Assembly (NCBI GenBank): GCA_003245575.1
Contig: QKCR01000022.1
Location: forward strand, 27,543-91,542
Direction of reading: 5' to 3'
Source of the DNA: Alphaproteobacteria bacterium
GTDB taxonomy: Bacteria; Pseudomonadota; Alphaproteobacteria; Micavibrionales; Micavibrionaceae
DNA: 64,000 nucleotides
A program made the position numbers and the translations under genes. Within the stretch, counting starts at the first letter, position 1; each line of letters starts with the position of its first letter. Shown here one piece after another: positions 52,601 to 57,518 of this stretch. Below the pieces are notes generated by a model. That model made no database searches and had not been told where the DNA came from. It saw nothing but the letters and a program-made list of their open reading frames with translations.

Positions 52601-53956
52601 TTAAGCCACTTCTCTTTCCGAAGCTACCGGAGAAGATAAAAGAGGCGTGGGGATTGGTTCTTGCGCCTTTTCTTTTTTTGCAGATCCCAATCCTGATACA
52701 ACACCGAAGATGTATCTGGCGAGGGATATTCCGACAGCTGAAACATCCTGAGAGAGTTTTTGTGCCGATCCCATGAAGCTGGGCGTAATGTGATCTGTTA
52801 CTTGCAGTGTTTCGGCACTTTCTATTGGGGGTGTCTTTGCCGCTTTTTGCTTGTCGGCCACAGGCTTAATTGTTCTCTCGCAAATTTGTCTGACGGTTGC
52901 CAAGGCCACATTGAAGTCTGTGTCATCAAGCTTTGCTGTGCCGGGATCGCCGGTTCTGATTTTATAGCTTTCCAGCAATGCATTGGCATGGTCCAGATAT
53001 TCTTCACGACGGGCTGCGATGTCTTTTAGGGCGGCCTCACACAGTAAAGTCAGTTGTCTGACACTGGTATCAATTGGATTAAAGCGTGGATGCTTTTCGT
53101 CTTCTACGCCGACTTCTGTTTCAAAGCTACGTACGCGGATGTCCAAAACGTCTTCAATCATTTCATGTGATTCTGACCGTTTGTAGGCTTGGCGGGCAAT
53201 GCCTTTGATCCAGCTCTGGAATTTTTGAGCGGAACTTCTGTTGAAGAGCTCTTTGAATTTGCCGCGTGAAGGGCTAAAGCCTCCGATATAAACCATTTCT
53301 ATATTTGCATCGGGGTTTAGTTTGCGCAGTTCTTTTGCGTAGAAAATCGGGTTTTGGTCGATTGTCGGGTCGCAGAATATGCCTTCTTTTCCTTTGATTT
53401 TTGCAGGTTTATTTACGGTCGGGATCGAAGTTGCGGCGACGACCATTTCAACAAGGCTGAGATTAGGTGATGAACCTGCAGGGAAATGGTTTCTTCCGGT
53501 TTCTAAATTCGGAACAGCCATAAGGCGTTCGGATAGGGCATGGTCTCCATCAGTTTCGATGTTCATGACTCCGATGCTTAGTCCGTGAGACAAGTCTCTG
53601 AGAGTGGTGTCCCCCAGAATTTCTTGTAGTTTTGCGTGGATCATGTCCGGATTAAAGCGGGATGATGTGCTGATTGTTTGTTTTGCCAAGAACCCTGTGC
53701 CGGGCATTGCTTCAGGAGCCATGCGGATAAAGAGTTCCAGAGCTTCTTCTCCTGTCATCTTCTGGAGAAGGGCTATTGGGTATGTGGAGCCGGAGTCGGC
53801 CACAATACCGCCTGAATAAAGCTCAAGGGGATGTTTGTTTGTCAGGGAAGATGTAAAGACCAATTTCACGAGTTGGTGAAGCACCGTGACCCCTCCGCCC
53901 GAGAGGACCGCAATGTGATGTTTTGGTTCTTTTTTTGTATGACTCCCTGTTGTCAT
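52601..53956 (-). CDS. Patatin-like protein with degenerate catalytic motifs
   Basis: LSGGGVTVL, YSGGIVADSGSTYPIALLQ, VVAATSIPTVNKP, FCDPTIDQNPIFYAKELRKL; homologous pattern to 54023-55315. Confidence 0.72.
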   Translation of the reverse strand: MTTGSHTKKEPKHHIAVLSGGGVTVLHQLVKLVFTSSLTNKHPLELYSGGIVADSGSTYPIALLQKMTGEEALELFIRMAPEAMPGTGFLAKQTISTSSRFNPDMIHAKLQEILGDTTLRDLSHGLSIGVMNIETDGDHALSERLMAVPNLETGRNHFPAGSSPNLSLVEMVVAATSIPTVNKPAKIKGKEGIFCDPTIDQNPIFYAKELRKLNPDANIEMVYIGGFSPSRGKFKELFNRSSAQKFQSWIKGIARQAYKRSESHEMIEDVLDIRVRSFETEVGVEDEKHPRFNPIDTSVRQLTLLCEAALKDIAARREEYLDHANALLESYKIRTGDPGTAKLDDTDFNVALATVRQICERTIKPVADKQKAAKTPPIESAETLQVTDHITPSFMGSAQKLSQDVSAVGISLARYIFGVVSGLGSAKKEKAQEPIPTPLLSSPVASEREVA

Positions 53957-54022: not shown

Positions 54023-55315
54023 CTATTTGCCCATTAGTTTATTCTTGATTCTATTGCCTATTCCAAGTGTTTTACCTTGTTTTTGCTCAGATTTCACCAT
54101 TTTTCGTAATTCATCATTGTTTTTGACTAAAATCTCGCAGATTTCATTAAAAGAGTGGCGGTTTTCTTCCAGTGTCATTTCGAAGAAATTCTTTAATCGG
54201 CGCAAATTTTCCGGTGAGGCGTCATCAATATCCGTATTCGGGTAGTCCCTAACAAACGGACCGGAGACAAGTGACTTGTTAAAGACAAAAAGATTTTTAC
54301 CGACTTCGTGACGGAATGAATCCAGCAGGGCCGTTTCCGAGGCGTAGAAGAAAATATTTATCAGCGGCATATCGTTGCTGGGATCAACAACGCCGAGTGA
54401 TCCGAAACGGTTCCAGTCATCTTTTTGATAGGAGCGGTTAAAATATCCTGTACCTAAAACAATAATAATCAAATCGCGATCTGCGGGAACATGGCGGCGT
54501 AGAGCCCCCATGTAGCTGATGCATGGGTTGTCAAAAATGCTGCCGTCAATTCCTGTAATGGTGCGCTGGGGCGCATCGTCGCTTTCGCGCATCGGGAAAG
54601 AGTAACAGGGGAAGTATGTTGGTGCTGCCGTGCTTGCCATCACAGCGTCAAATATATCGACCTGTTGTGGTGGGCGGGCATCAAGCGCGCCGTCGAATTT
54701 TATATTCTTTAGCCAAAGTGCGTGCCCGCCTTCATTGAGAAATGTATTCACGTTATGGACGGGGGACGACATTGTGTCTCCCGGTTCTTGCGTTGGTTGC
54801 AGAGTGCTGCCTTCGATATTGTAGACAGGAACGATCAGGCTTTTCAGAGAGTCGGATAGCTTATGACGCCCATAAAGAGCGCGGAGCGAGCGTCCGAGAT
54901 TTGCGTGTTCGTAGTGACCATGTTTTAGAAGATTCCCGAGTTGCTCGATGCGCATGGTTCTGTTGTTGAAGTCATGGATCATACTGCGGAAGGCGCGGAA
55001 TGAATCGCGCGGAAAAATATGGATGCCTTCACGTTCGTAAAAACGCACCATGTGGCGGGCTTTGAATTTCGGTTTTGTCGGGTCGTGTGGGGACGGGATA
55101 TTGAGTGCCGCGTTCAAGATTGATCCGGTTGACGGGCCCATAAAGATGTCGACCATTTCGGACATGTGTAAGCCTGTGACTTCTTCAATCTTTTGCATGA
55201 AGTGGGCAGGTAGAAGTCCGCGCATTCCTCCCCCATAGTTGAACAGTGCAACAATCGGTTTCTTTCCGGATTTTTGTGGTGCGGGCTGCTCTGCGGAACT
55301 GGGGTCGATGGTCAT
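54023..55315 (-). CDS. Patatin-like phospholipase
   Basis: FNYGGGMRGLLPAHFMQKIEE, IFMGPSTGSILNAAL (GxSxG), VMASTAAPTYFPCYSF, GIDGSIFDNPCISYMGALRR. Confidence 0.88.
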   Translation of the reverse strand: MTIDPSSAEQPAPQKSGKKPIVALFNYGGGMRGLLPAHFMQKIEEVTGLHMSEMVDIFMGPSTGSILNAALNIPSPHDPTKPKFKARHMVRFYEREGIHIFPRDSFRAFRSMIHDFNNRTMRIEQLGNLLKHGHYEHANLGRSLRALYGRHKLSDSLKSLIVPVYNIEGSTLQPTQEPGDTMSSPVHNVNTFLNEGGHALWLKNIKFDGALDARPPQQVDIFDAVMASTAAPTYFPCYSFPMRESDDAPQRTITGIDGSIFDNPCISYMGALRRHVPADRDLIIIVLGTGYFNRSYQKDDWNRFGSLGVVDPSNDMPLINIFFYASETALLDSFRHEVGKNLFVFNKSLVSGPFVRDYPNTDIDDASPENLRRLKNFFEMTLEENRHSFNEICEILVKNNDELRKMVKSEQKQGKTLGIGNRIKNKLMGK

Positions 55316-55407
55316 TGATTATTCCGGAATTGTTCTTTTTTTTGTTTGGGCATTAGGGAAGGTGGCAGGCGATTCGCTGACCTAAGTATCCTAGCCAAAT
55401 TTTAGGC

Positions 55408-55433
55408 AAAAAAAAACCGGGCTCATTGCCCGG
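55408..55433 (-). terminator. Rho-independent terminator of the putative sRNA
   Basis: CCGGGC-AATGA-GCCCGG-T9 on minus strand. Confidence 0.85.
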
Positions 55434-55490
55434 CGAGTTGAACAGGGAGGTTTTACGTCTAGAGAGACGTAAAGAACCAAAGTGGTTCTG
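55408..55490 (-). ncRNA. Putative trans-acting sRNA with exposed CCUCCC tract
   Basis: Minus strand CAGAACCACUUUGGUUCUUUACGUCUCUCUAGACGUAAAACCUCCCUGUUCAACUCGCCGGGCAAUGAGCCCGGUUUUUUUUU: two perfect hairpins, unpaired linker, GC-rich terminator plus U9; promoter-like TTGGTA-N18-TATAAG just upstream. Confidence 0.72.
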
Positions 55491-55496
55491 GGCGCT

Positions 55497-55526
55497 CTTA
55501 TATGATGGATAGGCTAAAAGTACCAA
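55497..55526 (-). promoter_or_regulatory. Sigma70-like promoter for putative sRNA
   Basis: TTGGTA - 18 nt - TATAAG on minus strand, placing +1 near 55490. Confidence 0.45.
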
Positions 55527-55604
55527 CGTTATGTTCGAATGTCAGAGATGCCAAAAATGCATGGCTAAATCTATGGTTGTTTCTTTTGAAAAAATCTATC
55601 CAAA

Positions 55605-56507
55605 TCAATGGCTTGCGTCTAGGGGGGCGAGATCCAGTTGTTTGATGATGAAATCGCGGAAGGCAGAAATGCGTTTGGAATGGCGGCGTTCTTCAGGATA
55701 GACAAAGAACATTTCAATCGATTCGACACGGGTTTCGGGGAGTAGAATTTCGAGATCAGGGCATTTGTTTACCATAAATGTTGGTAAAGTTGCGATTCCC
55801 AAGCCGCTTTTAACGGCGCCGTAGATGGTCGAAATGGAATTAATCTGAACCAGCTTGTCATTTTTCTCAAGTGTGATGCCTGCTTTATCAATCAGCCAGT
55901 TCGGGTTTTTGAACGGGACGAGAGATTGATCCGGATATACAATCAGCGTGTGGTCCTTCAAATCCTTGAGCGTATTCGGTGTACCGTTCTCTTTCAGATA
56001 GGATTTGCTGGCACAGACTGACAGGGACATTTTTCCCAGAGAACGTTGGATCAAATCGGATTGTTCAGGTTTGTGCAGGCGAATTGCGGCATCGGCTTCC
56101 CGCATACCCAAATTGAAAATGCGGTCATCCAAGAGCAAAGTGAGATTGATTTCCGGATTTGATTTTTTGAATTCCGGCAGAAGTTCAGATAGCCAAGAGG
56201 AGGCTAAAAATTCTGCCATCGTCAGAGTCAACGGACCTTCGGGATTATCGCGGGCGTCGCTCAATTGACCTTCAATCATGACCATCTTAGCAAAAATTTC
56301 GGATGTTCCGTTGAAGAGCAGTTCACCTTGCTCGGTCAAAATTAGACCGCGCGCGTGGCGGTGAAATAATGTGATGCCCAAATCTTCTTCAAAAGATGAA
56401 ATGTGGCGAGAGACTGCCGACTGGGACAGGTTCAAAGTTGCACCGGCGTGGGTGAAACTCCCGGCCTTTGCGACCATGTGAAATATTCTCAGCTTGTCCC
56501 AATCCAT
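55605..56507 (-). CDS. LysR-family transcriptional regulator
   Basis: MDWDKLRIFHMVAKAGSFTHAGATLNLSQSAVSRHISSFEEDLGITLFHRHARGLILTEQGE. Confidence 0.95.
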   Translation of the reverse strand: MDWDKLRIFHMVAKAGSFTHAGATLNLSQSAVSRHISSFEEDLGITLFHRHARGLILTEQGELLFNGTSEIFAKMVMIEGQLSDARDNPEGPLTLTMAEFLASSWLSELLPEFKKSNPEINLTLLLDDRIFNLGMREADAAIRLHKPEQSDLIQRSLGKMSLSVCASKSYLKENGTPNTLKDLKDHTLIVYPDQSLVPFKNPNWLIDKAGITLEKNDKLVQINSISTIYGAVKSGLGIATLPTFMVNKCPDLEILLPETRVESIEMFFVYPEERRHSKRISAFRDFIIKQLDLAPLDASH

Positions 56508-56531: not shown

Positions 56532-57518
56532 TTACTCGGCAGCGTCTTTGATGCTGTGGTTTTGAGCTGCCAGATAGCGATCTGCTTCAAGGGCGGCCAT
56601 GCATCCCATACCTGCTGCTGTTACGGCTTGACGGTATGTTTTGTCTTTTACGTCGCCGGCTGCGTAAACGCCGCTTACGGAGGTGGCTGTCGAGTCCGGA
56701 GATGTCAGGATGTATCCTTCCTTGTCCATATCAATTTTGCCTTTGAACAATTCGGTTGCAGGATCGTGACCGATGGCAACAAACACGCCGTCTACTTTGA
56801 AGTCTGTGATGGCGCCTGTTTGGGTGTCTTTCAGCTTCAAGCCCGTGACGCCGATCTCGCCGTCTTTAGAGCCAGGAGGGTTTCCGATGATTTCGTCAAC
56901 GGTTGCATTCCAAATCACATCTATTTTTGGATTTTCGAACAAACGATCTTGTCCGATTTTTTCGGCGCGTAGTGAATCGCGACGGTGAATGAGAGTGACC
57001 TTGCTTGCGAATTGAGACAGGAAGAGAGCTTCTTCTACGGCAGAGTTTCCTCCACCGATAACAGCAACTTCCTTGCCGCGATAGAAAAATCCGTCGCATG
57101 TTGCGCAAGCCGAGACACCAAATCCGCGATATGTTTTTTCAGAGTCAATTCCAAGCCAGCGGGCTTTTGCACCTGTGCAGATTATGATTGTTTCTGCTTC
57201 GTAGGTTTTTCCTGATTGGCCTTTTGCTGTGAACGGACGTTTTGCAAAATCGACTTCCGTAATCATATCCATGATCATTTTTGTGCCGACATGTTCTGCT
57301 TGAGCGCGCATTTGTTCCATCAGCCATGGACCTTGAACGGCTTCGGCAAAACCCGGATAGTTTTCAACATCGGTTGTGATGGTCAGTTGGCCGCCTTGTT
57401 CCATTCCCGTTACGAGAACAGGTTCCAGATTGGCGCGTGCTGCGTAAATGGCTGCCGTGTAGCCGGCTGGGCCAGACCCTACAATGAGGACTTTCGTCAA
57501 GATATGTTCTTTTGTCAT
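56532..57518 (-). CDS. trxB: Thioredoxin reductase
   Basis: VLIVGSGPAGYTAAIYAARANLEPVLVTG, GFGVSACATCDGFFYRGKEVAVIGGGNSAVEEALFL. Confidence 0.96.
   Translation of the reverse strand: MTKEHILTKVLIVGSGPAGYTAAIYAARANLEPVLVTGMEQGGQLTITTDVENYPGFAEAVQGPWLMEQMRAQAEHVGTKMIMDMITEVDFAKRPFTAKGQSGKTYEAETIIICTGAKARWLGIDSEKTYRGFGVSACATCDGFFYRGKEVAVIGGGNSAVEEALFLSQFASKVTLIHRRDSLRAEKIGQDRLFENPKIDVIWNATVDEIIGNPPGSKDGEIGVTGLKLKDTQTGAITDFKVDGVFVAIGHDPATELFKGKIDMDKEGYILTSPDSTATSVSGVYAAGDVKDKTYRQAVTAAGMGCMAALEADRYLAAQNHSIKDAAE

Follow-up and report, generated by a model that had tools for sequence, protein, structure and literature searches.

The 64,000-nt stretch of DNA analysed here (the window) carries a real small RNA (sRNA) gene, which probably represents a variant of the LsrB-AbcR type of circuit with a SorX-like RNA. 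We consider it likely that this gene holds the position of AbcR1 in a trxB-lsrB/vtlR-sRNA module and that it belongs to a circuit, proposed below, in which an RNA activated by LysR and assisted by Hfq would act against Shine-Dalgarno (SD) sequences. A preliminary description of the DNA had pointed to the sRNA candidate and missed that the adjacent LysR gene is the LsrB/VtlR orthologue, with a box upstream of the sRNA promoter; it is because of this neighbour that the gene can be tied to the AbcR1 locus.

The sRNA gene (∼83 nt; positions 55408..55490, minus strand, as for all features of the locus given below) lies in a gap of 289 nt between the stop of the LysR gene (55605) and the start of a patatin gene (55315), as originally described. 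Its start is placed near 55490 and its 3′ end inside a U tract. The RNA opens with the 7-bp hairpin AGAACCA-CUU-UGGUUCU (HP1; 55473..55489), recovered by folding as reported previously and matched by a hairpin at the same place in homologues. The second hairpin, UUACGUCU-CUCU-AGACGUAA (HP2; 55453..55472), was identified from the fold and the alignment; it had been depicted as a perfect 9-bp helix, and the 9 bp are indeed possible (UUUACGUCU-CUCU-AGACGUAAA), but the minimum free energy (MFE) structure has 8 bp because HP1 competes for one U. HP2 is followed by the nearly invariant single-stranded tract AACCUCCCUGUUCAACUC (55435..55452), the proposed seed against ribosome-binding sites, and by the intrinsic terminator GCCGGGC-AAUGA-GCCCGGU with its U tract (55408..55434), the only one detected by the terminator scan in the gap between lysR and the patatin gene. 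The preliminary description gave the terminator a 6-bp GC stem; terminator and U tract are present, and the stem GCCGGGC/GCCCGGU has 7 bp if the closing G-U pair is counted. The MFE of the 83-nt stretch is −29.7 kcal/mol, whereas shuffled sequences average −14.9 (z = −5.5) and none of 200 folded as well; the compact sRNA of ∼83 nt originally proposed is thus supported.

Relatives of the sRNA were found by blastn in 91 of the 143 genomes searched, including all ten congeners. Alignment of 52 homologues revealed the core (U)ACGUC-UCCCA-GACGU-GAAACCUCCCUGUUCAACU(C)GCCGGG...CCCGG-U, with invariant columns in the tract AACCUCCCUGUUCAACUC. In most relatives outside the window's genus HP2 reads ACGUC-UCCCA-GACGU, with the AbcR M1 hexamer CUCCCA in its loop; the UCCCA loop has been lost in the window's genus, the window itself having UCUCUA. 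Since loop lengths differ, so that MAFFT-based covariation was not usable, HP1 was assessed by folding each sequence separately: 67 of 70 homologues retain a hairpin immediately 5′ of HP2, and 53 different versions of its 5′ arm occur among them. With this upkeep of the hairpin and the spread of blastn relatives, the element is far beyond chance. The conservation of the 5′ hairpins, on which the preliminary description had staked its candidate, is thereby established. Changes on both sides of a pair were seen at three of the eight HP2 pairs and two of the seven terminator pairs; together the two helices hold 24 cells in which both partners have changed, where shuffling predicts 5.1, a comparison which leaves relatedness uncontrolled, while sliding the partners destroys the pairing. 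Predicted transcripts from 39 loci (77–115 nt; ∼100 nt in most relatives, which carry one extra 5′ hairpin) have a mean fold z of −5.2 (−3.5 for the 5′ part alone), and over the same set the linear tract has a mean unpaired probability of 0.88, in line with the exposed anti-SD tract described earlier. The element could be viewed merely as the transcription terminator of lysR, with incidental hairpins and no regulatory RNA, and it does hold the sole terminator found after lysR. However, a terminator would account neither for the invariant unpaired tract nor for the maintained 5′ hairpins, the element's own promoter and the copies located away from lysR; we regard this explanation as extremely improbable.

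The neighbour of this sRNA gene on the 3′ side of trxB identifies the locus. The LysR-type regulator (55605..56507, minus strand), the proposed activator of the sRNA, has PDB entry 9hh1 as its best structural database match (E = 4e-73; next best 5e-32). 9HH1 is the LsrB protein of A. tumefaciens (PMC11975290), with which the window LysR shares 43% identity and full-length homology, and no other protein of its genome matches it at E≤1e-50. Upstream is trxB, encoding thioredoxin reductase (56532..57518, minus strand; TIGR01292, 419 bits). The order trxB, LysR, sRNA on one strand is kept in most relatives for which enough sequence is available. In A. tumefaciens the order is trxB-vtlR-abcR1-abcR2 (PMC7486931), and in S. 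meliloti AbcR1/2 are flanked by lsrB on one side and by a gene of the ArsR type on the other (PMC8844928). The neighbours of the window sRNA are LysR and patatin, which is also the outcome of a comparison with the locus context of SorX. Cysteines C144 and C273 of LsrB have been reported as conserved across the three rhizobial LsrB proteins compared, C273 being functionally important. The equivalent residues of the window LysR are A140 and V269, and the two cysteines are absent from most orthologues outside the 9HH1 branch; therefore, the window LysR probably senses oxidants differently from rhizobial LsrB. Another cysteine (C165 in the window LysR) is common to eight of ten near relatives sampled. 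On the other side of the gap, two patatin-like phospholipase genes are adjacent (54023-55315 and 52601-53956), the first scoring 82 bits with the CBASS lipase model NF041079, below its cut-off of 200.

The promoter of the sRNA was not called by a sigma-70 scan, and for this reason its assignment rests on comparative evidence. The sequence TTGGTA-N18-TATAAG is present on the minus strand where it had been reported, and conservation supports the claim that the RNA has its own promoter: the −10 element TATAAG (55497..55502) is backed by sequence and by spacing in relatives, and the −35-like element TTGGTA (55521..55526), separated from it by 18 nt, corresponds to a weakly conserved TGG/TGGAC. Upstream lies a predicted LsrB/VtlR-type operator, GCATCTCTGACATTC (55537..55551, minus strand), recognized by its sequence and by an operator matrix, with a second match, GCATTTTTGGCAT (55560..55548), overlapping it. 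The box GCAT-N3-TG-N3-T within this region (55551..55539) occupies −61..−49 relative to the start predicted at 55490. The matrix was trained on rhizobial AbcR promoter sites only and tested against dinucleotide shuffles; it scores the window operator at 12.0 (p = 0.02) and gives p≤0.05 at 44 of 69 near loci and at 23 of 56 among the named loci. Five of the ten congeners with enough upstream sequence (L004, L005, L006, L014 and L043) did not reach significance. The first TATA-like match lies 47–50 nt after the operator start in 31 of the 41 near loci tabulated, and the operator is more common where LysR is adjacent (38/54 versus 4/13, p = 0.012, some of the 13 having short upstream sequence).

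These data also bear on the possibility that the RNA is mainly a 3′-UTR product, released by RNase E from read-through of the trxB-lysR mRNA in the way that SorX arises from ompR-1. The best Rfam match of the sRNA, SorX, is itself a processed 3′-UTR RNA (PMC8625941; PMC9438474), and at three loci (L051, L053 and L058) the RNA lies directly 3′ of trxB, the LysR gene being missing and a well-placed operator not found. Moreover, the terminator scan found no terminator between lysR and the sRNA, so that read-through from lysR may also supply the RNA. Against processing as the main source stand the conserved operator and TATA element, which occur at fixed spacing just upstream of the RNA in most LysR-linked loci, and the position of the operator, which equals that of the proven LsrB site of PabcR1 (PMC8844928). 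In S. meliloti PabcR1 the LsrB motif lies at −61..−49 and its removal lowers activity more than 22-fold (PMC8844928). We therefore favour transcription from the LysR-linked promoter and consider a predominantly processed origin unlikely.

A covariance model of the family (R1), which includes the window sequence, matches 55490..55411 with 82.9 bits; across the class it detects the RNA in 123 of 289 genomes. Some of the matched lineages contributed sequences to R1, and for them the scores are not independent, whereas adjacency to LysR is independent. An LsrB-type LysR is present in 171 of the 289 genomes and, among the matches listed, the RNA is located 138–607 nt 3′ of the LysR match on the same strand in 83 of the 104 genomes having both. 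The RNA accompanies LysR at named loci from, among others, Azospirillum, Thalassospira, Kiloniella, Pelagibius, Reyranella and several Acetobacteraceae; the placement of other genomes in the taxonomy was deduced from named loci and gene content. At two Thalassospira loci (L075 and L080) a tandem pair of the RNA follows the LysR gene, as with AbcR1/AbcR2. Two genomes of 1.6–1.8 Mb (G360 and G369; loci L279-L292) carry six to seven copies each, and some of these adjoin one of the several paralogous LysR genes, which suggests a lineage-specific expansion.

In order to relate the RNA to described families, Rfam was searched. At gathering thresholds only two tRNAs were found within the window, and the best match of the sRNA at relaxed thresholds was SorX (RF02784), with 36.7 bits over the whole model and a cut-off of 46.6. 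The preliminary description had likened the RNA to suhB/alpha-r8 (MmgR). The two do share CUCCCU and a similar layout, and the suhB model (RF00519) gives 20.9 bits; this is far under its gathering score of 41 and also below the SorX score. None of 20 homologous loci tested passes the SorX or suhB cut-off either. With all these scores below the cut-offs, no Rfam family claims the sRNA, and suhB/MmgR was rejected as its family; membership is very improbable. The SorX cut-off is passed by one of 143 genomes of the class. The ar15 model (RF02345), for which a score above 40 bits was sought, gave nothing in the region of the sRNA when the threshold was relaxed to E≤10. Its lack of matches over the 289 class genomes carries no weight, since no control responded in that search; in genomes from the order of G407 the model does work. 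The true ar15 loci found there are located 3′ of an orthologous LysR and have GCATRNCTGNCATGC ∼61–65 nt before the RNA. The body of rhizobial AbcR has no detectable homology to R1, and it is mostly the terminator that R1 recognizes in those loci; for this reason we infer common descent with AbcR from position and promoter only. With regard to SorX, one genome (G148; loci L243 and L244) contains a tandem SorX pair 3′ of a response-regulator gene (69.8 bits, above the cut-off, and 64.8 bits) and a further SorX-like RNA (41.5 bits) ∼130 nt after an LsrB-type LysR match and preceded by a clear operator, GCATAGCGGGCATGC. Because this genome carries both kinds, SorX is probably a paralogue of the LysR-linked RNA.

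We propose the following mode of action. LysR, the LsrB/VtlR orthologue, would bind GCATCTCTGACATTC at about −61 and activate sigma-70 transcription of an RNA of ∼83 nt, predicted to end at its own terminator. The hairpins would keep the ACCUCCCUGUUCAACUC tract open which, together with Hfq, could pair with the SD regions of several mRNAs, and this pairing would block their translation. The genome encodes hfq, and the RNA combines an open seed with a U-rich 3′ end, features which, alongside an encoded Hfq, are those of Hfq-dependent trans-acting sRNAs and point to its probable use of the protein. For S. meliloti AbcR1, masking of the ribosome-binding site of livK by an aSD motif has been proposed (PMC3712013), and SorX inhibits potA translation (PMC9438474); by analogy, blocking of ribosome-binding sites is the most likely mode for the window sRNA. 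Target prediction from the tract, as advised in the preliminary description, yielded candidates and no general enrichment. The extended SD pattern ACAGGGAGGN{4,10}ATG occurs 11 times in the genus, against nine for the reversed control, and when the starts of 578 genes (∼29% of the genome) were scanned for duplexes, as many passed each fixed energy threshold as in flank-shuffled controls. The top two duplexes alone stand out, although they are to be taken as candidates only, because both levels were reached in 2 of 150 controls. They involve the starts of two genes that are neighbours on a single contig: AGTTGAACAGGGA precedes an ORF of 178 aa, and GCGAGCTGAACAGGAGAG a GNAT gene. In these candidate targets, the GNAT gene and the nearby ORF (L310:7273-7830 and L310:9345-9881 of the same genome), the start regions (L310 7830 and 9881, minus strand) have long complementarity to the sRNA tract. 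Both AGTTGAACAGGGA and GCGAGCTGAACAGGAGAG are kept in genome G007; the gene of the top match together with AGTTGAACAGGGA is kept in one of ten congeners, and the shorter GAACAGGGA in two.

A 2025 study considered LsrB to be unique to Rhizobiales, on the basis of a tree with few other alphaproteobacteria (PMC11975290). In contrast to this view, LsrB-type LysR genes, the operator and the downstream sRNA are spread through much of the class, and the RNA of these loci is captured by no Rfam family. Tentatively, and with slightly less than even confidence, we suggest that AbcR1, SorX and the window RNA either stem from a single ancestral alphaproteobacterial circuit or took each other's place within it, a circuit in which an LsrB-type LysR beside trxB activated a downstream anti-SD sRNA. 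It would predate Rhizobiales and extend beyond them, and rhizobial LsrB would have acquired its thiol redox switch later. The literature searched contains no paper that mentions SorX and AbcR together. If the proposal is true, two separately studied sRNAs are parts of one old circuit, the original signal of which could then be tested for in bacteria that are easy to grow, for example Azospirillum or Thalassospira.

Among known systems, suhB/MmgR resembles the window sRNA in the open CUCCCU between hairpin and terminator and differs in the flanking sequence. SorX likewise has ACCUCCCUGUU and a GC terminator after a hairpin; however, in Rhodobacteraceae it lies 3′ of the gene for an OmpR-type regulator, from whose mRNA it is processed, whereas the window sRNA has a LysR-linked promoter. 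LsrB/VtlR (9HH1) occupies the same place after trxB as the window LysR and has the same operator. AbcR1 and AbcR2 (alpha-r15) agree with the window locus in the order trxB-lsrB/vtlR-sRNA, the presence of anti-SD motifs and the spacing from box to TATA, and AbcR1 also in the LsrB box GCAT-N3-TG-N3-T at −61..−49, given the predicted window start. The RNAs themselves differ in body and in length (114–121 nt versus 83 nt): the M1 CUCCCA loop is found in most relatives but not in the window sRNA itself, which has ACCUCCCUGUUCAACU instead of M2 GUUCCC between the hairpins. AbcR RNAs are characterized by repression of mRNAs for ABC transporters and by expression that depends on LsrB. The window sRNA looks like the counterpart, outside rhizobia, of AbcR1, with its own sequence closer to SorX.
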